In this document: in pieces, positions 24,431 through 38,684 of the stretch
How the letters are laid out: the number at the start of each line of letters is the position of its first letter
Position numbering within the stretch: the stretch's first letter is position 1
Made by a program: the position numbers and the translations under genes
NCBI GenBank assembly: GCA_017481265.1
Contig: JAFUPK010000092.1
Coordinates: 1-41,225, forward strand
Source: Clostridia bacterium
Lineage (GTDB): Bacteria > Bacillota > Clostridia > Oscillospirales > CAG-272
Reading direction: 5' to 3'
DNA length: 41,225 nt
The notes under the pieces: model-generated
Seen by the model: the letters and a program-made list of their open reading frames with translations, nothing else
Databases searched by the model: none
What the model was told of the DNA's origin: nothing

Positions 24431-26671
24431 ATGAAAAGATTTTTAAGCATCTCCCTTGTTCTCGCTATGCTTATGAGCACGTTTATGCTCACAGCTACGG
24501 CAAATGCTGAGGGATCTGCACTTCCCTTCACAGACGTGAAGGCTTCAAAATGGTATTACGATGCTGTGAAGACAGTTTGGGAAGAAGGCGTTATGGAGGG
24601 TAAAGCTGATGGTGTGTTCGCACCTAACGAGCCTATGACCCGCGCGCAGATCGTTACGATATTCTACCGTCTTGCAGACCGCTTTGAGACGGGTCTCGGC
24701 AAAAGTCTAAACTTTACTGACACAAAGAAGAATGCCTGGTACGCCGATTATCTCGGCTGGGCAGTAACTGAAGAGCTTGTAGGCGGTTATCCCGAGGGCG
24801 ACTTCCGTCCCAACAACGCTATCACCCGCCAGGAACTTGCAAAGCTCATTGTTGAGTTTCTGAAGTACGTCATCGCGAAGGTCGAGTCCGAGTCTCTCGT
24901 TGAAAGTTTCGCTGATGAGAAGAAGTTCCCCGCTTGGTCTAAGGAATACATCGAAGCTCTCCGCGAAACGGGACTTATGGGTGGAGACGACAGCGGTAAC
25001 TTTAACCCCAAGAAGACCGCTACCCGCGCAGAGGTAGCAACCGTTATCGTAAGAATGCTTCCCTTCGTTAAGGAAGCCATAACCCCCAAGGCTCCCCCTA
25101 TGGGTTGGCAGTCATATATGGCTTACCATTGGGCAGTCAACGAAGAGGCAGTGCTATCTCAGATGGACGCTATGATCGATACGGGTCTTTACGACGCAGG
25201 ATATGAATACATCAATATCGATGACTGGTGGTACACCACACGTAATGAGGAGACAGGCAGAGTCGATACTTGGGAGGATCACTTCCCCAACGGAATGAAG
25301 TACATTGCAGACGAGGCTCACAAGAGAGGACTCAAGGCAGGTATCTATACCGACCTCGGGTATAACAGCTGCGGATCGGGAAACGCCGACCTTCCTTTAG
25401 CTTCCGGAATTAACGTAGGTCTTCAGGCAGGAAACTACGCAGATGACCTTTGGAGGTATCTCGGCACGGGTACCTATACGGACGATTATGCGAAGCAGAC
25501 CGGCACAGACCCTATCGAGTGCTGGGGCTTTGACTATCTCAAGGTAGACTCCAACGGAACCAAAGAAGGAGTTGAAGCGCAAAGCGTTCTTCAGCAGTAT
25601 GCTGATGTCATCGACGATATTGAACGTGAAACAGGCAGATACGTCCACTTTAATATGTGCCGCTGGTATTACGAAGGTCCCTACCAGCTTGTAAGCGGTG
25701 ATTCATGGAGAGTAGGAACCGACAGCTATGCATCCTTTGAATACACCAAAGCTACAATCGACAAAATGAAGCGTGCATCAAGCTACACTGTTCCGGGGCA
25801 CTATGCAGATCTCGATATGTTCGTGTTCACGGGCAACTACATTGAGGACAGAACAAATTTCGCTATGTGGTGTATGTTCTCATCTCCCCTTATGATCAGT
25901 CAGGATATCCGAACTCTTACCGAGGAGTATCTCAGCTTCCTTAAGGATACAGAGCTTATCGCTCTTGATCAGGATCCCCTTGCCTATGCCGCGGCATACA
26001 TTGAAAAGCTCGGTGACACAACAGAGCTTTGGTTCAAAAAGACAGGCTCCTACGAAAGCGGTACAGGTGCTATAGCTATCTACAATCCCGGTGATGCGGC
26101 CGAGACCGTTACTTTAAAGCTTTCCGACATCTGCAAGAGCGGCAAGGCTGAAGTTCGCGACGTATTCGCAAAAAGCGACCTCGGTGAGCTCTCAGAGATC
26201 ACGGTGACAGTAGAGCCTCACGGTGTTTATATCTACACGATCGATACTGATGAAGGTTACACCAGCGACGATATCGGCGACTACAGAGTATATGGTGTTG
26301 TAAATACTGAATATGACGAAGCCTTTACAAACGGAACAGTAGATACATTTCCCATCGTTACCTTGGACGAGCTACCTAATTTGCTGAAAATGCCGGAGAA
26401 ATTCAGACCGATCGTTATCGACGTAAGAAGTCCTGAGGAATACGAAAAAGGGCATCTTGACGGAGCATTAAATATTCCGTATATGGACGTTCGCAACGCC
26501 ATTACTCAGCTAAAGCTACCTTTGGGTGTAAAGGCAGTAGAGGGTAACGGATCGACCAGAGATCTTATACTCTATGCAGGGGATGAAGAAACGTTATATA
26601 ACGCCTGCCGTGAATTTGAAAAATTCAGATACACCGTAAAATCTCTTGGAGTATTGACCGAATTTGAATAA
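24431..26671 (+). CDS. Secreted SLH-domain GH27 alpha-galactosidase with C-terminal rhodanese-like domain, copy 1
   Basis: The 746-residue protein has a signal peptide (MKRF, hydrophobic core, NAEG near residue 27). Three SLH repeats follow at about residues 31-210, which anchor proteins to the cell wall polymer. Next is a GH27 barrel opening with APPMGWQSY. The predicted nucleophile is Asp373 (YLKVDSN) and the acid/base Asp431 (WRVGTDSY), with PGHYADLDM also present. A beta-sandwich follows. Residues about 635-746 form a rhodanese-like domain (VIDVRSPEEYEKGHLDGA), but the catalytic Cys is replaced by Ala716 (ILYAGDEE). It should act outside the cell on alpha-galactosides. The RBS AAAGGAG is at 24417-24423. 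The role of the dead rhodanese is unknown. Confidence 0.88.
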   Translation: MKRFLSISLVLAMLMSTFMLTATANAEGSALPFTDVKASKWYYDAVKTVWEEGVMEGKADGVFAPNEPMTRAQIVTIFYRLADRFETGLGKSLNFTDTKKNAWYADYLGWAVTEELVGGYPEGDFRPNNAITRQELAKLIVEFLKYVIAKVESESLVESFADEKKFPAWSKEYIEALRETGLMGGDDSGNFNPKKTATRAEVATVIVRMLPFVKEAITPKAPPMGWQSYMAYHWAVNEEAVLSQMDAMIDTGLYDAGYEYINIDDWWYTTRNEETGRVDTWEDHFPNGMKYIADEAHKRGLKAGIYTDLGYNSCGSGNADLPLASGINVGLQAGNYADDLWRYLGTGTYTDDYAKQTGTDPIECWGFDYLKVDSNGTKEGVEAQSVLQQYADVIDDIERETGRYVHFNMCRWYYEGPYQLVSGDSWRVGTDSYASFEYTKATIDKMKRASSYTVPGHYADLDMFVFTGNYIEDRTNFAMWCMFSSPLMISQDIRTLTEEYLSFLKDTELIALDQDPLAYAAAYIEKLGDTTELWFKKTGSYESGTGAIAIYNPGDAAETVTLKLSDICKSGKAEVRDVFAKSDLGELSEITVTVEPHGVYIYTIDTDEGYTSDDIGDYRVYGVVNTEYDEAFTNGTVDTFPIVTLDELPNLLKMPEKFRPIVIDVRSPEEYEKGHLDGALNIPYMDVRNAITQLKLPLGVKAVEGNGSTRDLILYAGDEETLYNACREFEKFRYTVKSLGVLTEFE

Positions 26672-26703
26672 TGGCTGATAATATAGTAAAAGGAGAACCG
26701 ACA

Positions 26704-28944
26704 ATGAAAAAATTTTTAAGCATCCTCCTTGCAGCTGTAATGCTTATGGGTACTTTTGTGTTCACGGGCTCGGTAAATGCAGAGGAAACGGGACTTCCCT
26801 TTTCGGATGTCAAAGCATCAAAATGGTATTACGATGCTGTGAAGACAGTTTGGGAAGAAGGCGTTATGGAGGGTAAAGCTGATGGTGTGTTCGCACCTAA
26901 CGAGCCTATGACCCGCGCGCAGATCGTAACGATCTTCTACCGTCTTGCAGACCGCTTTGAGACGGGTCTCGGCTCGACTCTCAAGTTCACGGATACAAAG
27001 AAGAACGCCTGGTACGCCGATTATCTCGGCTGGGCTGTTACGGAAGAGCTCGTTGGCGGTTATCCCGAGGGCGACTTCCGTCCCAACAACGCTATCACCC
27101 GTCAGGAACTTGCAAAGCTCATTGTTGAGTTTCTTAAGTACATCATCGCAAAGGTTGAGTCCGAATCTCTCGTCGAGAGCTTTACGGATGAAAAGAAGTT
27201 CCCCGGCTGGTCACGTGAGTACATAGAGGCTCTACGCGAAACGGGACTTATGGGCGGTGACGAGAGCGGTAATTTTAACCCTAAGAAGACCGCTACACGT
27301 GCTGAAGTAGCCACAGTTATCGTGAGAATGCTTCCCTTCGTCAAGGAGGCTATCGCCCCCAAGGCTCCCCCCATGGGTTGGAACTCATATATGGCACAGG
27401 CTTGGTTCGTTGACGAGGCGCAGCTCATCGAGCAGATGGATGCTATGATCGACACGGGTCTTTACGATGCAGGCTATGAGTACATCAACATTGATGACTG
27501 GTGGTACACAGACCGAGATGAAGAAACAAAGCGCGTAAACGTGTGGGAAGAAAAATTCCCGAACGGAATGAAGTACATAGCCGACGAGGCTCACAAGCGC
27601 GGCCTCAAGGCAGGAATCTATACCGATCTCGGCTACGACAGCTGCGGTTCAGGCGAATCAGATCTTCCCCGTCCGTCCGGAATAAACGTCGGGCTTAAGG
27701 GAGGAAACTACGTTGACGACCTCTGGAGATATCTCGGTACGGGCACCTATATGGATGACTATGCAAAGAAGACCGGTACAGATCCCATTGAGTGCTGGGG
27801 ATTTGATTATATCAAGGTAGACTCCAACGGAACCAAGGATGGTGTAGCAGCGCAGGATGTTCATCCTCTGTATGCCGGCGTTATCGATGATATCGAGCGC
27901 GAAACAGGCAGATACGTTCACTTCAATATGTGCCGTTGGTTCTATGAGGGACCCTACCAGCTTGTCTACGGTGACTCATGGAGAAACGGAACAGACAGCA
28001 ACGACACGTTTGAGTATACACAGATGGTCGTTGACAAGATGAAGCGTGGATCCAGCTACACGGTTCCGGGTCACTATGCGGATCTTGATATGCTCGCCTT
28101 CAACGGAAATCTTACAGAGGACAGAACGAAGTTCGCTATGTGGTGTATGTTCTCATCCCCTCTTATGCTCAGTCTTAATATGAAAGCCCTCACTGAAGAA
28201 CAGCTCGCCTTCCTTACCGATTCAGAGCTTATTGCACTTGATCAGGATCCCCTCGCGTATTCCGCGGCTTATATCAAAGATCTCGGCGAGACAACCGAGC
28301 TTTGGTTCAAAAAGACCGAGTCCTACGAAAACGGCGCAGGTGCCATTGCAGTTTATAATCCCGGTGATACTGCTGAAACCGTTACTGTAAAGCTTTCCGA
28401 CATCTGCAAGAGCGGAAAGGCTGACGTACGCGATGTATTTGCAAAGAGTGACATCGGAGAGCTTTCCGAGATCACAGTAACGGTGGAGCCGCACGGTGTG
28501 TACATCTACACCATTGATACCGACAGCGGTTACACCAGCGACGATATCGGAGACTACAGAGTATACGGCGTTGTTAATACTGAATATGATCAGACCTTTA
28601 TTGAAAACAGTGTCTCAAAAGAACTCCGTACCGTTTCTATGGACGAGATGTCTACCCTTATGAAGTACCCCGAAAAGCTTCGCCCGGTGCTTGTAGATGT
28701 AAGAAGTGCGGAGGAATATGCCGCAGGACATCTTGACGGTGCAATCAATGTACCGTATATGGAAGTCAGAGAGGCAATTACAACCTTGAAGCTCCCATTG
28801 AATGTAAAGCAGTGGGATATAGATCCTATGAATTTCTTAATCGTCTATGCAAGCGACGAAAAGACCTTAGAGCTTGCATACCGAGAATTTGAAAAATTCT
28901 GCTTCACTGTTAAAACCATCGGCGTGATCACAGAATTCGATTAA
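26704..28944 (+). CDS. Secreted SLH-domain GH27 alpha-galactosidase with C-terminal rhodanese-like domain, copy 2
   Basis: This is a tandem paralog of the gene upstream, also 746 residues with the same layout: signal peptide, three SLH repeats, GH27 barrel, beta-sandwich and rhodanese-like end. The catalytic residues fall at the same numbers, Asp373 (YIKVDSN) and Asp431 (WRNGTDSN). The rhodanese loop again has Ala716 (IVYASDEK). The SLH region shares a 110-bp block identical at DNA level with copy 1 (26818-26927 and 24545-24654). The rhodanese part is clearly more divergent, as is the start of the barrel. AGGAG at 26691-26695 serves the ATG at 26704. The gap to copy 1 is 32 nt, so they form one operon ending at the terminator at 28954-28986. 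Substrate preferences may differ. Confidence 0.88.
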   Translation: MKKFLSILLAAVMLMGTFVFTGSVNAEETGLPFSDVKASKWYYDAVKTVWEEGVMEGKADGVFAPNEPMTRAQIVTIFYRLADRFETGLGSTLKFTDTKKNAWYADYLGWAVTEELVGGYPEGDFRPNNAITRQELAKLIVEFLKYIIAKVESESLVESFTDEKKFPGWSREYIEALRETGLMGGDESGNFNPKKTATRAEVATVIVRMLPFVKEAIAPKAPPMGWNSYMAQAWFVDEAQLIEQMDAMIDTGLYDAGYEYINIDDWWYTDRDEETKRVNVWEEKFPNGMKYIADEAHKRGLKAGIYTDLGYDSCGSGESDLPRPSGINVGLKGGNYVDDLWRYLGTGTYMDDYAKKTGTDPIECWGFDYIKVDSNGTKDGVAAQDVHPLYAGVIDDIERETGRYVHFNMCRWFYEGPYQLVYGDSWRNGTDSNDTFEYTQMVVDKMKRGSSYTVPGHYADLDMLAFNGNLTEDRTKFAMWCMFSSPLMLSLNMKALTEEQLAFLTDSELIALDQDPLAYSAAYIKDLGETTELWFKKTESYENGAGAIAVYNPGDTAETVTVKLSDICKSGKADVRDVFAKSDIGELSEITVTVEPHGVYIYTIDTDSGYTSDDIGDYRVYGVVNTEYDQTFIENSVSKELRTVSMDEMSTLMKYPEKLRPVLVDVRSAEEYAAGHLDGAINVPYMEVREAITTLKLPLNVKQWDIDPMNFLIVYASDEKTLELAYREFEKFCFTVKTIGVITEFD

Positions 28945-31513: not shown

Positions 31514-32008
31514 ATGAAAAAAGTTGGGATCGTCATGGGCAGTGACAGCGATCTGCCTATTCTCCAAAAGTCAATTGAGACCTTGAAGGGGCTCGGTATC
31601 CCCTGTGAGGTACACGTGTATTCGGCTCATCGCACCCCCGATGAGGCACGTGACTTCGCACGAAACGCAAGAGCAAACGGCTTCGGTGTTATCATAGCCG
31701 CCGCAGGCATGGCAGCTCACCTTGCGGGAGCTGTTGCCGCAAACACCACGCTCCCCGTCATCGGAATCCCATGCAAGAGCACAAACCTCGACGGTCTCGA
31801 CGCCCTCCTGTCCACCGTGCAGATGCCCTCGGGCATTCCCGTGGCAACCGTGGCAATTAACGGTGGAGCGAATGCGGCACTTCTTGCAGCTCAGATGCTC
31901 GCTATAGAAGACGCAGAGCTTGCCGCAAAGCTTGATGCAAAGAGGAGCTCCGATGCCGAGGCGGTTCTCAAAAAGGATGCCGCTATCAGCGCACAGTTCA
32001 ACGACTGA
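31514..32008 (+). CDS. purE: 5-(carboxyamino)imidazole ribonucleotide mutase
   Basis: Class I PurE moves the carboxyl of N5-CAIR to C4, giving CAIR. The 164-residue protein has the expected length. It shows the GSDSDLPIL phosphate loop near residues 9-17, the SAHRTPDEA motif with the catalytic His, and [10 protein letters not shown]. No purK (which makes N5-CAIR) and no purC or purB is in the visible part of the operon; they may lie elsewhere. First gene after the ZTP riboswitch. Confidence 0.95.
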
Positions 32009-32030
32009 TTTTTAGGAAAGGAGAACTACT

Positions 32031-33455
32031 ATGGGAGGTTTTTTCGGAGCAGCTTGTAATCACGATGCCATTGAGGATGTATTTTTCGGAACAGACTATC
32101 ATTCTCACCTCGGAACACGCAGAGGCGGTATGGCTTCATTTGATCCCGTACGCGGTCTGCAAAGAGATATTCACAACATCGAAAACTCACCGTTCAGAAC
32201 GAAGTTTTCAAATATATTCGACGAGATGACCGGCACATCCGCTATCGGATGTATCAGCGACAACGATCCACAGCCCCTGATAATTCGTTCTGCTCTTGGA
32301 AGATTTGCAATATGTACCGTCGGTGCTATCAATAATGCAGATGAGCTTATTGACAGATACTTTTCTGCAAGCAGCGGTCACTTCAATGCTATGACAGGCG
32401 GTGCGGTCAATGCTACCGATCTTACAGCGGCGCTGATCAGCCGCAAGCCAAGCTTTGTTGAAGGAATCAAATTTGTTCAGGATCTTATAGTCGGAAGTCT
32501 TTCGCTTCTTATCCTTTGCGACGATGGGTCTATCATCGCCGCAAGAGACAAATTCGGTAGAACTCCCGTCCTTGTGGGAAAGAATGAAAACGGATACTGT
32601 GTTTCATTTGAGTCCTTTGCTTATCAGAAGCTTGATTATCTTGACGAGCACGAGCTCGGTCCCGGAGAGATCGTCCGTATTACCAAGGATTCTATGGAAA
32701 TCCTCGCAGAACCCGGCGAAAAAATGTGTATATGCGCTTTCCTCTGGACTTATTACGGTTATTCCTCATCCAAGTATGAGGGAGTAAACGTCGAAGCAAT
32801 GCGTTATCGCGACGGCGGTATTCTTGCTGAAACCGATAAGAAAAACGGATTTATCCAAAATATCGACTACGTAGGAGGCTTCCCCGATTCGGGAACGCCT
32901 CACGCTATCGGATATGCCAACGCAAGCGGAATCCCCTTTGCAAGACCTTATATTAAATATACACCTACCTGGTCCAGAAGCTTCACTCCTGCAAAGCAGG
33001 TTGACAGAAACCGGGTTGCAAAGATGAAGCAGATCCCCATTAAGGAGTTTATCAAGGGAAAGAGACTTCTCTTCGTCGATGACTCCATTGTCCGCGGCAC
33101 ACAGCTTAAGGAGACCGTGGAGTTTCTCTATGAGAACGGTGCAAAGGAAGTCCACATGAGAAGCGCCTGCCCTCCGATCATGTACAGCTGTAAGTACCTT
33201 AACTTTTCACGAAGCAACAGTGACATGGATCTTATAACACGACGCGTTATCATGGAGCTTGAGGGCAAGGAAGGCTTCAATCATATTGATGAGTACAGCG
33301 ACGGTACCACAGAACGCGGTAAAAGAATGCGCGAGGCTCTCTGCCATAAGTTCCGCTTTGATTCTCTTGAGTTTCAGACTCTTGACGGCATAATCAATGC
33401 TATCGGCGTAGACCGAGACAAGCTTTGCACCTACTGCTGGACGGGAAAAGAATAA
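32031..33455 (+). CDS. purF: Amidophosphoribosyltransferase-like protein lacking the glutaminase nucleophile
   Basis: PurF normally makes phosphoribosylamine from PRPP using ammonia released from glutamine by an N-terminal Cys. Here the protein (474 residues) begins MGGFFGAACN, so Gly replaces the Cys of the usual CGVFG start. The oxyanion motif HNGNL appears as TVGAI. The in-frame TAG at 32013 and the RBS at 32017-32023 rule out a missed upstream Cys. In contrast, the PRPP site LLFVDDSIVRGTQ is intact, and the four expected Fe-S ligands are present (Cys233, Cys387, Cys466, Cys469). It therefore looks like an ammonia-dependent or partner-fed enzyme. The operon position supports the PurF role. 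Confidence 0.85.
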   Translation: MGGFFGAACNHDAIEDVFFGTDYHSHLGTRRGGMASFDPVRGLQRDIHNIENSPFRTKFSNIFDEMTGTSAIGCISDNDPQPLIIRSALGRFAICTVGAINNADELIDRYFSASSGHFNAMTGGAVNATDLTAALISRKPSFVEGIKFVQDLIVGSLSLLILCDDGSIIAARDKFGRTPVLVGKNENGYCVSFESFAYQKLDYLDEHELGPGEIVRITKDSMEILAEPGEKMCICAFLWTYYGYSSSKYEGVNVEAMRYRDGGILAETDKKNGFIQNIDYVGGFPDSGTPHAIGYANASGIPFARPYIKYTPTWSRSFTPAKQVDRNRVAKMKQIPIKEFIKGKRLLFVDDSIVRGTQLKETVEFLYENGAKEVHMRSACPPIMYSCKYLNFSRSNSDMDLITRRVIMELEGKEGFNHIDEYSDGTTERGKRMREALCHKFRFDSLEFQTLDGIINAIGVDRDKLCTYCWTGKE

Positions 33456-33485
33456 ACCGCAAATTATTTGAAGGAGTATATAGAT

Positions 33486-34535
33486 ATGCATAACAATTCA
33501 AGAAGTGAAAGCTACGCTGCAGCCGGCGTTGATATTACCGCAGGCTACAAGGCAGTTGAGCTTATGAAGAAGCACATCGCAAGAACTAAAAACGAGGGTT
33601 GTCTCGATGACGTCGGAGGATTTGGCGGTTGCTTCGGTCTTCCTGTTGCGGGAATGGAAGAGCCCGTTCTCGTTTCCGGTACCGACGGTTGCGGAACCAA
33701 GGTCAAAATGGCGATCCTCATGGACAAGCATGACACCATCGGCATTGACGCCGTTGCAATGTGTGTGAACGACATTATCTGTTGCGGCGCACGTCCCCTT
33801 TTCTTCCTTGACTACATCGCTTGCGGCAAGAACATCCCCGAGAAGATCGCCGCTATCGTCGGCGGCGTTGCTGAGGGATGCGTTCAGTCAGGCGCGGCTC
33901 TTATCGGCGGTGAGACTGCTGAGCACCCCGGCATGATGCCCACAGAGGAATATGACCTTGCAGGCTTCGCTGTAGGTATCGTTGATAAGAAGAAGATCCT
34001 TGACAACACCAGAATGGCTGAAGGTGACGTTGTTATCGCTCTCGCATCTACAGGCGTTCACTCCAACGGCTTCTCTCTCTGCCGTAAGGTATTCGACATC
34101 GACAACAATCCCGATACACTTTACGTTCCCTGCGAGAAGCTCGGCGGAAAGAGCATTGCCGAGACACTTCTTACTCCCACAAAGATCTACGTGAAGAGCA
34201 TACTTGCTCTTCTTGAGAAGGTCGACGTTAAGGGCATCTCCCACATCACAGGCGGCGGCTTCTACGAGAACATTCCGAGAAGCATCCCCGACGGACTCTG
34301 TGCCGAGATCGACAAGGCAGCCGTTAAGGTTCTCCCCATTTTCGATCTCATTATGGAAACGGGCAACATCCCCGAGCGCGATATGTACAACACCTACAAC
34401 ATGGGCGTGGGTATGAGCGTGGTCGTTCCTGCAGGAGAGGTTGAGACAGCACTTGAGATCCTCCGTGCAAACGGTGAGGATGCTTATGTTATCGGTAAGA
34501 TCACAAAGGGCGACGAGAAGATCATCCTTGAGTGA
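33486..34535 (+). CDS. purM: Phosphoribosylformylglycinamidine cyclo-ligase
   Basis: This enzyme closes the imidazole ring, turning FGAM and ATP into AIR. The 349-residue protein has the PurM/PurL ATP-binding fold. VSGTDGCGTKVKMA is the nucleotide motif near residues 64-77, and GGETAEHPGM follows. The N-terminus (RSESYAAAGVDITAGYKAVEL) is typical of the family. ATG at 33486 lies 9 nt after AAGGAG (33471-33476). A TTG at 33468 lies before that site and is rejected. Confidence 0.96.
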   Translation: MHNNSRSESYAAAGVDITAGYKAVELMKKHIARTKNEGCLDDVGGFGGCFGLPVAGMEEPVLVSGTDGCGTKVKMAILMDKHDTIGIDAVAMCVNDIICCGARPLFFLDYIACGKNIPEKIAAIVGGVAEGCVQSGAALIGGETAEHPGMMPTEEYDLAGFAVGIVDKKKILDNTRMAEGDVVIALASTGVHSNGFSLCRKVFDIDNNPDTLYVPCEKLGGKSIAETLLTPTKIYVKSILALLEKVDVKGISHITGGGFYENIPRSIPDGLCAEIDKAAVKVLPIFDLIMETGNIPERDMYNTYNMGVGMSVVVPAGEVETALEILRANGEDAYVIGKITKGDEKIILE

Positions 34536-34549
34536 TTTTGGGTGGCAAG

Positions 34550-35194
34550 ATGAGTAACGTGAAAAAGATAGCCGTCCTCGTTTCGGGCGGCGGAACGAAT
34601 TTGCAGGCTCTCATTGATGCTGAAAAGCGCGGAGAGCTGGGACAGGGCAAAATATCCCTCGTCATCGCTTCAAAGCCCGGAGTCTTTGCCCTTGAAAGAG
34701 CGGCAAACGCAGGGATAGAGTCAAAGGTCCTCGCGCGTAAGGATTACGAAAGCATCGCGGATTATTCAAAGGCACTTGCCGATACACTTGAAGCGGCAGG
34801 CGTTGACCTTGTAGTCCTCGCAGGCTTCCTTACAATCATCGACGAGCAGGTATACGAAAAATTCCCGAACAGGATCCTCAACGTACATCCTGCGCTTATC
34901 CCATCCTTCTGCGGAAAGGGCTTCTACGGACTTTATGTCCACGAGGCGGCTCTTGAAAAGGGAGTAAAGGTGTCGGGTGCCACGGTACACATCGTAACTC
35001 CCGAGTGTGATGCGGGCCCCATCGTTCTTCAAAAGGCTGTTGAAGTAAAGGAAGACGATACACCGGAAACTCTACAAAGAAGGATCATGGAGGAGGCTGA
35101 GTGGAAGATACTTCCCGAAGCCGTAAAGCTGTTCTGCGACGGCAGGATCACTGTTGAAAACAATAAGGTTTACGTAAAAGGAGAAAAAGTTTGA
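34550..35194 (+). CDS. purN: Phosphoribosylglycinamide formyltransferase
   Basis: This enzyme formylates GAR using 10-formyl-tetrahydrofolate, the cofactor whose shortage the upstream ZTP riboswitch senses. The 214-residue protein has the GAR-binding start VLVSGGGTNLQAL, the catalytic Asn/His in LNVHPALIPSF, and the Asp in ECDAGPIVLQ. ATG at 34550 follows GGGTGG at about 4 nt. A GTG at 34532 overlaps the purM end and is less likely. Its stop codon lies in the left arm of a hairpin that begins the structured purN-purO spacer. Confidence 0.94.
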   Translation: MSNVKKIAVLVSGGGTNLQALIDAEKRGELGQGKISLVIASKPGVFALERAANAGIESKVLARKDYESIADYSKALADTLEAAGVDLVVLAGFLTIIDEQVYEKFPNRILNVHPALIPSFCGKGFYGLYVHEAALEKGVKVSGATVHIVTPECDAGPIVLQKAVEVKEDDTPETLQRRIMEEAEWKILPEAVKLFCDGRITVENNKVYVKGEKV

Positions 35195-35307
35195 AAATAA
35201 AGCACGCGTAAAGCGTACGTCAGCTTTTTCAAACCCATTTGTGTCTTGCCGCCAAAAGGCGGGCGGCATTTTTCTCAGCCTCAAGGCTGAGAAAAAACGT
35301 CACAAAT
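35189..35307 (+). other. Highly structured purN-purO spacer, possible attenuator
   Basis: Hairpin I pairs 35189-35195 with 35228-35234 and has an inner stem ACGC (35204-35207)/GCGT (35213-35216). A three-way junction follows: outer stem 35237-35243 with 35301-35307 (7 bp), hairpin A 35247-35253 with 35262-35268 (7 bp, GC-rich), and hairpin B 35269-35280 with 35285-35296 (12 bp). Hairpin A followed by TTTTT (35269-35273) looks like a terminator, but hairpin B would pair with those T's. A switch between termination and read-through is possible; no ligand class was recognised. Confidence 0.6.
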
Positions 35308-35330
35308 CAAAGAAAGGAATGGTCATAATT

Positions 35331-36047
35331 ATGAAAATAAATACCATTGCTACTGAGCTTAACTCCCTCGCTTATCACGGCAGAGGTATCATCATTGGAA
35401 AGTCACAGGACGGCAAGAAGGCAGTAACTGCATATTTCATCATGGGCAGAAGCGTTAACAGCCGCAACAGAGTATTCGTCGCTGAGGGTGACGCAATGCG
35501 CACCAAGGCATTTGACGAATCCAAGATGGTAGACCCCCATCTTATTATCTACTACCCTGTAAGAGTCCTCGGAAACAAGACCATCGTTACAAACGGCGAC
35601 CAGACTGATACAATTTACGAGCTCATGGACCGTCAGATGACCTTTGAACAGGCTCTCCGTACACGTGAGTTTGAGGACGACAAGCCCAACTTCACTCCCC
35701 GCATCTCCGGTATCATTCACCGCGAAAACGGCGACATGAACTTTGCAATGTCCATCCTCAAGAGCGCTGAAGGCGACGACAGCTCCTGCGAGAGATTCAC
35801 ATACGCTTATTCAAACCCCATCGCAGGAAGAGCAAAGTTTATCCACACCTACGCCTGCGACGGCAATCCCCTTCCTTCATTTGAGGGCGAGCCTAAGACC
35901 CTTGAGCTTCCCGATGCTTCCATCGACGAGCTTACCAATCTTATCTGGACTAACCTCAATGAGGACAACAAGGTGTCTCTCTTTGTACGTTACATCGACA
36001 TCGAGAGCGGCGAGACCGAAACAAGAATCGTAAACAAAAATGTGTGA
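35331..36047 (+). CDS. purO: IMP cyclohydrolase, PurO type
   Basis: This protein of 238 residues matches the archaeal-type IMP cyclohydrolase family (PurO), which closes FAICAR to IMP, the final step of purine synthesis. The family start is visible as YHGRGIIIGKSQDGK followed by YFIMGRSVNSRNRVF. It is not related to the N-terminal half of bacterial PurH. It is paired with a stand-alone AICAR transformylase downstream (17-nt gap), so the pair replaces bifunctional PurH. ATG at 35331 is 12 nt after AAAGGA (35313-35318). ATG at 35319 would touch that site, so 35331 was preferred. Activity is inferred from family and context. Confidence 0.85.
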   Translation: MKINTIATELNSLAYHGRGIIIGKSQDGKKAVTAYFIMGRSVNSRNRVFVAEGDAMRTKAFDESKMVDPHLIIYYPVRVLGNKTIVTNGDQTDTIYELMDRQMTFEQALRTREFEDDKPNFTPRISGIIHRENGDMNFAMSILKSAEGDDSSCERFTYAYSNPIAGRAKFIHTYACDGNPLPSFEGEPKTLELPDASIDELTNLIWTNLNEDNKVSLFVRYIDIESGETETRIVNKNV

Positions 36048-36064
36048 AATATAGGAGATAGAAA

Positions 36065-37249
36065 ATGAAAGAATTCGAACTGAAATACGGCTGTAACCCC
36101 AACCAGAAGCCCTCCAAGATCTACATGAACGACGGCAGCGAGCTTCCCATCAAGATCCTCTGCGGCAGACCCGGCTATATCAACTTCCTCGACGCATTCA
36201 ACTCATGGCAGCTCGTCCGTGAGCTCAAGGCGGCTCTCGGTCTTCCCGCAGTTACTTCCTTCAAGCACGTAAGCCCCACAAGCGCGGCTGTAGGTATTCC
36301 CCTTCCCGAGAAGCTCAAGAAGGCTTGCTTTGTTGATGATATCGAGGGACTTGATGAGTCTCCCCTTGCCTGCGCTTATGCAAGAGCAAGAGGAACTGAC
36401 AGAATGTGTTCCTTCGGTGACTGGGTCGCACTCTCCGACGTTTGCGACGTTACCACAGCTCTCATGATCAAGCGTGAGGTCTCCGACGGTGTTATCGCTC
36501 CCGGATATGAGCCCGAGGCACTTGAGATCCTCAAGTCAAAGAGAAAGGGTAACTACAATATCGTTGAGATCGACCCCGACTACGTTCCCGAACTCAAGGA
36601 GACAAAGCAGGTATTCGGCATCACCTTTGAGCAGGGAAGAAACAACTTCGAGATCAACCGTGAGCTTCTTCAGAATGTCGTTACCGCTAACAAGGATATG
36701 CCCGAGAGCGCTGTACGCGATCTTATCATTTCTCTCATCACCCTCAAGTACACACAGTCCAACTCCGTTTGCTTCGCAGTTGACGGTCAGGCTATCGGTG
36801 TAGGTGCAGGTCAGCAGTCAAGAGTACACTGCACAAGACTTGCAGGCGGTAAGGCTGACACATGGTTCCTCCGTCAGCATGACAAGGTACTTAACCTTCC
36901 CTTCCTCCCTACAATCGGCAGACCCGACCGTGACAACGTTATCGACGGCTACATCAATCAGAACGAAGAGGATGTTTGCGCTGACGGTAACTGGCAGAAG
37001 TATTTCACCGAGCAGCCCGAGCACTTCACCCGTGAGGAGCAGAGAGCATATCTCGACACTATCGACGGCGTTGCCCTCGGTTCTGATGCATTCTTCCCCT
37101 TCAGCGATAACATTGAGCGTGCTAAGAAATCCGGCGTAAAGTACATCGCAGAGCCCGGCGGATCTATCAGAGACGACATCGTTATCGAGTGCGCTGACAA
37201 GTACGGCATGGCTATGGCATTCACAGGAATGCGCCTCTTCCACCATTAA
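36065..37249 (+). CDS. Stand-alone AICAR transformylase (PurH C-terminal domain homolog)
   Basis: This enzyme formylates AICAR with 10-formyl-tetrahydrofolate. The 394-residue protein corresponds only to the transformylase part of PurH; the N-terminal cyclohydrolase (MGS-like) domain is absent. The catalytic Lys67-His68 pair lies in SFKHVSPTSAAVG, and TQSNSVCFAVDGQAIGVGAGQQSR is the shared AICAR/folate region near residue 225. The cyclohydrolase function is supplied by the upstream purO. The name purV has been used for such split forms. It ends before a hairpin array that separates it from purD. Confidence 0.9.
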   Translation: MKEFELKYGCNPNQKPSKIYMNDGSELPIKILCGRPGYINFLDAFNSWQLVRELKAALGLPAVTSFKHVSPTSAAVGIPLPEKLKKACFVDDIEGLDESPLACAYARARGTDRMCSFGDWVALSDVCDVTTALMIKREVSDGVIAPGYEPEALEILKSKRKGNYNIVEIDPDYVPELKETKQVFGITFEQGRNNFEINRELLQNVVTANKDMPESAVRDLIISLITLKYTQSNSVCFAVDGQAIGVGAGQQSRVHCTRLAGGKADTWFLRQHDKVLNLPFLPTIGRPDRDNVIDGYINQNEEDVCADGNWQKYFTEQPEHFTREEQRAYLDTIDGVALGSDAFFPFSDNIERAKKSGVKYIAEPGGSIRDDIVIECADKYGMAMAFTGMRLFHH

Positions 37250-37260
37250 GATTTTCCATT

Positions 37261-37389
37261 CTGAGTCTGCTTCGGCAGACTCAGACCGGAAAGTGAAATA
37301 TTTCGCTTTGCGAAATGTGAAATACCGCTTCGCGGTGTGAAATCCATCCGAAGGATGGATGAAATATTCACCGGGGGCGGAATGTGAAT
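37261..37389 (+). repeat. Hairpin array with TGTGAAATA boxes, right copy
   Basis: A 10-bp stem with a C(UUCG)G tetraloop (37261-37284) opens the array. Hairpins follow at 37301-37315 (6 bp), 37324-37336 (5 bp), 37343-37359 (7 bp) and 37366-37389, separated by TGAAATA or TGTGAAATA boxes at 37294-37300, 37316-37324, 37336-37343 and 37360-37366. The closing CCGGGGGCGGAA (37371-37382) parallels CCGGTGGGCGGAA of the array after argF. As there, it is in the transcribed orientation, directly after a stop codon. It lies inside the pur operon, so it does not simply end transcription. Confidence 0.75.
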
Positions 37390-37412
37390 AAAACTGTATG
37401 GAGTATAACCAC

Positions 37413-38684
37413 ATGAAAATAATGGTTGTAGGTGGTGGCGGACGTGAGCACGCCATCATCAAAAAAATAAAGGAAAACAAAGACGTCACCGAGGTATTTG
37501 CCCTCCCCGGCAACGGCGGTATTGCCGCTGATGCGACCTGTGTGCCTATCAAGGCAGTTGACGTAGACAGTATCGTAGATTTTGCCCGCGATAACGCCAT
37601 TGACTATGCGGTAGTCGCTCCCGACGATCCGCTGGTTCTCGGTTGCGTAGATGCTCTTGAGGAGGCTGGCGTCCCCTGCTTCGGTCCGAGAGCAAATGCC
37701 GCTATCATCGAGGGAAGCAAGGTATTCTCCAAGCACCTTATGAAAAAATACGGTATTCCCACAGCGGCTTGCGAGATCTTTGACGATATGGACGCGGCGC
37801 TCAAGTATCTTGAGACAGCTCCCATCCCCACAGTTATCAAGGCTGACGGACTTGCTCTCGGCAAGGGAGTTATCATTGCTCAGACGAGAGATGAGGCGCG
37901 TGACGCGGTTCTCGCAATGATGCGCGACAAGACCTTCGGCAAGAGCGGTGAGCGAATCGTTATCGAGGAGTTCCTCACAGGGCCTGAGGTATCCGTTCTT
38001 TCCTTCACAGATGGTAAGACCGTGGTTCCCATGGTGTCCTCTATGGATCACAAGCGCGTAGGAGATAACGACACAGGACTCAATACCGGCGGTATGGGTA
38101 CCGTTGCTCCCAACCCCTACTACACCGAAGCTGTTGCCGCAGAGTGTATGGAGAAGATCTTCCTTCCCACCGTAAATGCTATGAACGCTGAAGGACGCAC
38201 CTTCAAGGGATGTCTCTACTTCGGGCTTATGCTTACCGCTGACGGCCCCAAGGTCATCGAGTACAACTGCCGTTTCGGAGATCCCGAGACTCAGGTAGTG
38301 CTTCCTCTCCTTGAAAGCGATCTTCTCACAGTAATGAAAGCTACGACAAACGGCACTCTTGCTGAGACAGAGGTAAAGTTTGCTGACAAGAACGCTTGTT
38401 GTGTCATTATGGCATCAGGCGGTTATCCCTCATCCTACCCCAAGGGATTTGAGATCACGATCCCTGCGGATATAGAGGATAAAGTATACGTTGCAGGAGC
38501 AGAGCTGAAGGACGGAAAGCTTGTTACAAGCGGCGGACGCGTTCTCGGCGCTGTTGACATTGCCGATACTCTCGGCGAGGCTATCGACAACGCATACGCT
38601 CTCGTAGACAAGATCAGCTTTGAAGGCGCATACTTCCGTCACGACATCGGCCGCAGAGCTATGGCGGCTTTGGAGGAAAACTGA
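37413..38684 (+). CDS. purD: Phosphoribosylamine-glycine ligase
   Basis: This ATP-grasp enzyme joins phosphoribosylamine and glycine to give GAR. The 423-residue protein opens with the MVVGGGGREHAI motif and has the ATP-grasp lysine/Gly-rich region KADGLALGKGV near residue 142 and the metal-binding YNCRFGDPETQ. ATG at 37413 lies 9 nt after GGAG (37400-37403). The ATG at 37398 overlaps that site and is less likely. Its stop codon overlaps the purL start (TGATG), so the two are coupled. Confidence 0.96.
   Translation: MKIMVVGGGGREHAIIKKIKENKDVTEVFALPGNGGIAADATCVPIKAVDVDSIVDFARDNAIDYAVVAPDDPLVLGCVDALEEAGVPCFGPRANAAIIEGSKVFSKHLMKKYGIPTAACEIFDDMDAALKYLETAPIPTVIKADGLALGKGVIIAQTRDEARDAVLAMMRDKTFGKSGERIVIEEFLTGPEVSVLSFTDGKTVVPMVSSMDHKRVGDNDTGLNTGGMGTVAPNPYYTEAVAAECMEKIFLPTVNAMNAEGRTFKGCLYFGLMLTADGPKVIEYNCRFGDPETQVVLPLLESDLLTVMKATTNGTLAETEVKFADKNACCVIMASGGYPSSYPKGFEITIPADIEDKVYVAGAELKDGKLVTSGGRVLGAVDIADTLGEAIDNAYALVDKISFEGAYFRHDIGRRAMAALEEN

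Follow-up and report, generated by a model that had tools for sequence, protein, structure and literature searches.

A PurF homologue without glutaminase residues in a clostridial purine operon, widespread among bacteria and probably dependent on ammonia

The purine operon of the window and the variant gene

The window, which is the whole analysed stretch of 41,225 nucleotides, carries on its forward strand a purine operon with the order purE-[variant PurF]-purM-purN-purO-AICARFT-purD-purL. The second gene (32031..33455, ATG start) encodes a PurF homologue of 474 amino acids that lacks the glutaminase residues and is called the variant PurF here. Directly 5' of it lies purE for the N5-CAIR mutase (31514..32008; TIGR01162, 202.5 bits against a cut-off of 149.6), and downstream follow purM (33486..34535; TIGR00878, 424.3 bits), purN (34550..35194; TIGR00639, 204.5 bits), a purO-type IMP cyclohydrolase (35331..36047; PF07826, 232.1 bits), a stand-alone AICAR formyltransferase or AICARFT (36065..37249; NF005492, 679.9 bits), purD (37413..38684; TIGR00877, 510.6 bits), and a single-chain purL truncated by the contig end (38684..41225; an open frame of 867 codons with a PF18072 match at C39:39209-39355). 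The starts of purM, purN, purO and purD were placed by eye.

The pair of purO and stand-alone AICAR formyltransferase (PF07826 and NF005492) is used in many operons with the variant, and elsewhere the bifunctional PurH does the job of both. This swap concerns the last two steps of the purine pathway, whereas the variant PurF concerns the first. Two operon types alternate within the genus, having either the variant or a canonical PurF between purE and purM, as seen when positions 31514-38684 of the window are compared with the congeners G001, G002, G004, G007 and G008. Outside the operon, three S-layer homology stretches, an alpha-galactosidase (Melibiase_2) and a rhodanese domain at the C terminus are oddly combined in a single open reading frame (26671-28944).

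The start of the variant gene is fixed by an in-frame TAG (32013-32015) overlapping a ribosome-binding stretch, AGGAAAGGAG (32014-32023), as read from the sequence and its in-frame codons; the two features (32013..32023, forward strand) stand directly 5' of the ATG and exclude an upstream start with a Cys. The earlier note had held that an upstream stop rules out a missed start, and the TAG is indeed real and in frame. The protein scores 156.7 bits with TIGR01134, short of the curated cut-off of 350 bits, and it matches the solved PurF structures, a comparison that the earlier note had asked for (1ao0, E 9.3e-35; 1ao0/1gph, E about 1e-34). The family profile matches the same structures with E 6.3e-62. 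All 80 proteins of the set A2, defined below, match TIGR01134 (best E 4.5e-60), and the variant matches of the genome searches score 139-196 bits with it.

Residues lost, retained and newly invariant

A profile built from 15 sequences, run against public genomes, found at least 596 matching stretches, the best 80 of which were fetched. The alignment discussed here compares 94 variant with 8 canonical PurF proteins. The 94, which include two pairs more than 95% identical, comprise set A2 (the window protein and those from 79 of the best 80 loci) and 14 proteins from other genomes and plasmid records; left out were L094 from A2, whose match starts inside the gene, L046, whose gene is cut by the contig end, and L052. 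The roles of the glutamine-site, PRPP and Fe-S positions were assigned from work on the E. coli and B. subtilis enzymes.

The remodelled Ntn half, formerly the glutaminase half (about residues 1-230; 32031..32720, border by eye), lacks the equivalents of Cys1, Arg26, Arg73, Asn101 and Asp127 in all 94 members, and all 8 canonical proteins have the glutamine-site residues. The nucleophile position (residue 2) is Gly in 91 of the 94, the window protein included, Ser in 3 and Cys in none; a Cys there is likewise absent among the best 80 of the at least 596 matches. The Arg of HRGQE (Arg26) is Leu in 94/94, the segment Arg73-Tyr74-Thr76 is deleted in 94/94, and the oxyanion Asn has become Val, Ile or Thr throughout, with the adjoining Gly retained in 92/94; where the canonical motif is HNGN, the window protein reads TVGA. 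Asp127, from the motif (S/I)D(S/T)E, is retained by 0/94 members and is Ala in the window protein. Since the same residues are absent from 94/94 members and present in 8/8 canonical proteins, the loss is due neither to chance nor to a frameshift. A missed start or frameshift in the window is likewise ruled out by the TAG at 32013 together with the agreement of the 94/94 relatives. Cys9, found in 5/94 members only, is no nucleophile of the family. Some Cys occurs within the first 15 residues of 65/94 members, none of them general, and within the first 6 residues in Evtepia gabavorous alone (residue 5).

The synthase half is retained. In the PRPP-binding motif LLFVDDSIVRGTQ (33066..33104), which reads DDSIVRGTQ at its core in the window, the D, D, S, V, R, G and T of the signature D-D-S-I-V-R-G-T, that is 7 of its 8 positions, are identical in 94/94, and the Ile is kept in 92/94. 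The Arg of GRTF and the equivalent of Lys349 are identical in 94/94 as well; the Tyr of KNRYxGRTF, a canonical motif of the PRPP half, is replaced by Thr in 93/94 and by Ala in 1/94. The Fe-S ligands Cys235 (32733..32735; also in 8/8 canonical proteins), Cys387 (33189..33191), and Cys466 and Cys469 (33426..33437) are present in 94/94. The canonical enzyme (TIGR01134; PDB 1ao0, 1gph, 1ecb) and the variant have in common their domain order, the PRPP signature, the four Fe-S cysteines of the B. subtilis type and the place in the purine operon; the variant differs in lacking the glutamine-site residues, in an 8-residue gap at Arg73-Thr76 and in about 28 additional residues close to the C terminus. 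The earlier note had described, for the window protein, a nucleophile Cys turned to Gly, a lost HNGN motif, an intact PRPP loop and four retained Fe-S cysteines. All of this is borne out, and its suggestion of a systematic departure, with the glutaminase site lost and the synthase site intact, extends on both counts to all 94 members compared.

That note had also called the glutaminase half dead. The loss of residues stands, but the half is not merely dead, as it has invariant residues of its own. Asp22, Tyr23, Ser25, Thr29, His48, Arg56, Asp77 and Ser87 are invariant in 94/94 and His24 occurs in 92/94, whereas these variant-specific residues are found in 0/8 canonical proteins, except Arg56 and Ser87 in 1/8 each. 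Other positions are common to both forms (His26, Gln81, Asn102, Arg172, Asp173, Glu194). Such variant-specific invariance means that the former glutaminase half is not drifting, and the new residues would seem to call for some function of their own.

Spread of the variant and genomes without a canonical PurF

In a quick tree of the 102 proteins, on which the program warned of long branches, the 94 variant and 8 canonical proteins are split by one long branch with an SH-aLRT of 100. The best 80 of the at least 596 matches are labelled Bacillota or unclassified, apart from three Coriobacteriia (an Adlercreutzia, a Thermophilibacter and an Atopobiaceae MAG). The Coriobacteriia are nested within a clade of operon members, which suggests that they acquired the variant by transfer. 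Bacteroidales members were found in the plasmid collection. The variant gene adjoins purE or purM in 54 of these best 80 loci. Among the other 26, purB adjoins it in L123, L125, L131 and L132, and for 21 of the 80 the fetched flank contains none of the purine genes in the reference set, L069 having been covered by the first of two comparisons only. In the Bacteroidales and Peptoclostridium loci (L036, L037, L038, L052), the variant stands outside any purine operon; pepT adjoins it in 4/4 of them, and gcvT is also present in 3/4.

The replacement of the canonical enzyme was followed in 392 evenly drawn genomes of the class, all at least 95% complete except the window's own (82.5%). The variant was found in 109 of them, canonical PurF (E <= 1e-70) in 312 and purD in 336. 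Among genomes with purD, the variant is present in 26 of the 27 without canonical PurF (25/26 when the window's genome is excluded) and in 82 of the 309 with it, a pattern with a Fisher p of about 9e-13 that ignores relatedness and therefore overstates its strength, the genomes of one class being related. The sole exception, with purD and neither form of PurF, is G393. The 25 variant-only genomes span 15 families. In a separate search, canonical PurF exceeds the cut-off in 26 of 46 genomes from the best 80 loci, which were chosen for long flanks and named strains. A PurL domain is present in 18 of the 20 genomes searched for it, being absent from G014 and G060.

The strongest single case of the variant as the only PurF found is G273, a genome in one contig of 1,671,491 bases and 99% complete. 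It has the variant, and a search at E <= 1e-70 found no canonical PurF. Its genes stand in the row purE, purC, variant PurF, purM, PurN-PurO fusion, purB, AICARFT, purD and purL, with purL identified by tblastn only. The PurN-PurO fusion of this operon is one protein of 477 amino acids (L177, 11715-13148). Likewise, the variant occurs together with purD and a PurL domain in named strains of Evtepia gabavorous (KLE1738), Levyella massiliensis and Adlercreutzia equolifaciens (DFI.6.87), none of which has a match for canonical PurF that exceeds the cut-off.

Some of these absences must be read with caution, as canonical purF adjoins the CTP synthase gene (pyrG) in G005, G006 and G087, and a missing canonical PurF could in some genomes reflect one missing contig or a joint deletion. 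At E <= 1e-20, pyrG is missing from 11 of the 25 variant-only class genomes (G097, G098, G124, G125, G132, G148, G175, G193, G209, G280, G320) and from 0 of 35 examined among the 82 with both forms. It is likewise missing from the window's genome and from the named strain Evtepia gabavorous (L088). Joint loss of pyrG with canonical purF and a shared assembly gap are both possible. The other 14 of the 25 keep pyrG and span 11 families. For G038, a further genome with the variant form only, pyrG is cut by the contig end, and the absence of canonical PurF is hence unsafe.

The window's own genome (G000; 82.5% complete, without pyrG) gave no PurF over the cut-off. Its other matches in the PurF search are GlmS-like and AsnB-like, and its contig C127, with carAB and arginine genes by eye, has no purF match. 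The congeners G003, G009 and G010 show the variant form only, yet they are 55-80% complete and lack pyrG. On the other hand, the two congeners of at least 94% completeness that have the same operon, G005 and G006, each carry a PurF with Cys1, its gene adjoining pyrG. As this enzyme adjoins pyrG there, and pyrG is missing from the incomplete assembly, the species of the window may also have a second, normal PurF. A side observation concerns the 14 control genomes: all have a PurF match at E <= 1e-70 except Bacteroides ihuae, and the Bacteroides PurF therefore looks divergent too.

Ammonia as the probable nitrogen source

In textbooks, PurF figures as the regulated first step of purine synthesis and as a model of how ammonia is channelled from one active site to another. 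The variant would be a PRPP-dependent phosphoribosylamine synthase that no longer hydrolyses glutamine and instead draws directly on ammonia, a reading held with a probability of about 0.7 on comparative grounds. The glutamine residues are lost, the other site is kept, and the variant is the sole PurF found in the full-looking pathway of G273, which together make direct use of ammonia probable. PRPP would bind to the intact synthase site and be aminated there by ammonia (PRPP + NH3 -> phosphoribosylamine + PPi), and the product would pass to PurD, encoded in the same operon. Both the choice of ammonia as donor and its arrival from solution, not via a partner, are presumed. Brown et al. (2011; PMC3261824) report that PurF with Cys1 replaced loses the use of glutamine and keeps that of ammonia.

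Where both forms coexist, the work may be split by nitrogen status. In G005, purC (by eye) and pyrG flank the canonical gene, and an ANTAR regulator, a glutamine synthetase and a GXGXG protein of the glutamate-synthase type stand nearby; in G006, the canonical gene is found with pyrG, asnB, an AmtB-PII fusion and the type III glutamine synthetase GSIII. This placement of the canonical gene beside nitrogen genes, with the variant in the purine operon, may point to a glutamine-using enzyme that serves when nitrogen is short and an ammonia-using one within the operon. The earlier note had seen the departure as fitting an ammonia-rich gut, a reason that is not borne out: Peptoclostridium acidaminophilum, which comes from black mud, has the variant too, and the window's genome retains a glutamine-type AsnB with its Cys and CarA (both by eye), the GlmS-like match and purL.

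Among the alternatives, it is possible, though unlikely, that the remodelled Ntn half has become a catalytic or sensing domain of a new kind, which would use another nitrogen donor or bind a ligand and thereby control the PRPP site. The invariance of Asp22, Tyr23, Ser25, Thr29, His48, Arg56, Asp77 and Ser87 in 94/94 and of His24 in 92/94 across three phyla, with each such residue shared by at most 1/8 canonical proteins, speaks for a domain of this kind, but residue 2, with Gly in 91 of the 94 members and Ser in the other 3, offers no candidate for an N-terminal nucleophile. A wider proposal, which taken as a whole is tentative and stands below even odds, has three joint parts: that the variant gives Bacillota, Actinomycetota and Bacteroidota a second stable way of carrying out the first committed step of purine synthesis; that a new site in the refitted Ntn fold, formed by Asp22-Tyr23-His24-Ser25, Thr29, His48, Arg56 and Asp77, serves to capture ammonia or a different donor, or to sense nitrogen; and that several lineages gave up the glutamine enzyme entirely.

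It is improbable that the variant makes phosphoribosylamine with ammonia received in a transient complex from another protein, a glutaminase or amidotransferase, a role that canonical PurF itself could play in tandem operons. A second PurF homologue (25-34% identical) does stand beside the variant in 7 of the 54 operon loci, and in 6 of these 7, where the genome was searched, the neighbour exceeds the PurF cut-off; canonical purF is also close by in four further loci of the best 80 (L123, L125, L126, L132). However, when the 1053 open reading frames of 86 loci were clustered and the 45 most recurrent families labelled by eye, purL was the only amidotransferase seen, and the operons have no recurring partner amidotransferase but purL and, in those 7/54, canonical PurF. 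For the stand-alone loci, the 25 most recurrent families were listed and labelled by eye in the same way. A conserved ammonia-donating neighbour was rejected as a candidate, none being seen among the listed recurrent families. Variant-only genomes, the single-contig G273 included, also speak against delivery by a partner. As no other amidotransferase recurs, a supply of free ammonia is more probable than a donor protein dedicated to the task.

A regulatory or moonlighting pseudoenzyme, with canonical PurF or some other chemistry as the source of phosphoribosylamine, would account for the 82/309 purD-bearing genomes that carry the variant along with canonical PurF, for the pepT/gcvT neighbourhood of some members and for the variant without purD in G014 (98% complete) and G267, but it is hardly probable given that the tested PRPP and Fe-S residues are invariant and that 25 of 26 genomes with purD and without canonical PurF have the variant. 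Phosphoribosylamine may have other routes, as purF mutants grow under some conditions according to PMC3485032. This tells against the ammonia reading as well, and so do the two genomes with the variant and no purD, the loci with pepT as neighbour, the 21 of 80 loci whose flank shows no purine gene, the 11 variant-only genomes without pyrG and the replaced Tyr of KNRYxGRTF.

Direct amination by free ammonia stays the preferred reading. The archaeal PurF' is a published precedent for a PurF homologue without the Cys, and the bacterial form is widespread. Brown et al. (2011; PMC3261824) describe the crenarchaeal PurF' as lacking the Cys, lying near purine genes and perhaps depending on ammonia, with a normal Cys PurF also present in every genome that has it. 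Compared by this description, the variant PurF likewise lacks the N-terminal Cys and is linked to purine genes, whereas some bacterial genomes show the variant only. A search by title, terms and the start of abstracts, with subscription papers outside its scope, found no paper on a bacterial variant PurF, and a term search of the main texts of PMC9758874, PMC11535334 and PMC11300592 found nothing on the Bacteroides member. The variant makes the archaeal hypothesis of 2011 testable in cultivable bacteria. If the reading is true, channelling would be dispensable in bacteria that have the widespread glutaminase-less PurF alone, and their purine synthesis would be tied to ammonia, not to glutamine. 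Such bacteria should also be insensitive to glutamine analogues at the PurF step. Automatic annotations as amidophosphoribosyltransferase would then need correcting; in public records, the Peptoclostridium and B. finegoldii members bear this name, and the Parabacteroides member is given as hypothetical.
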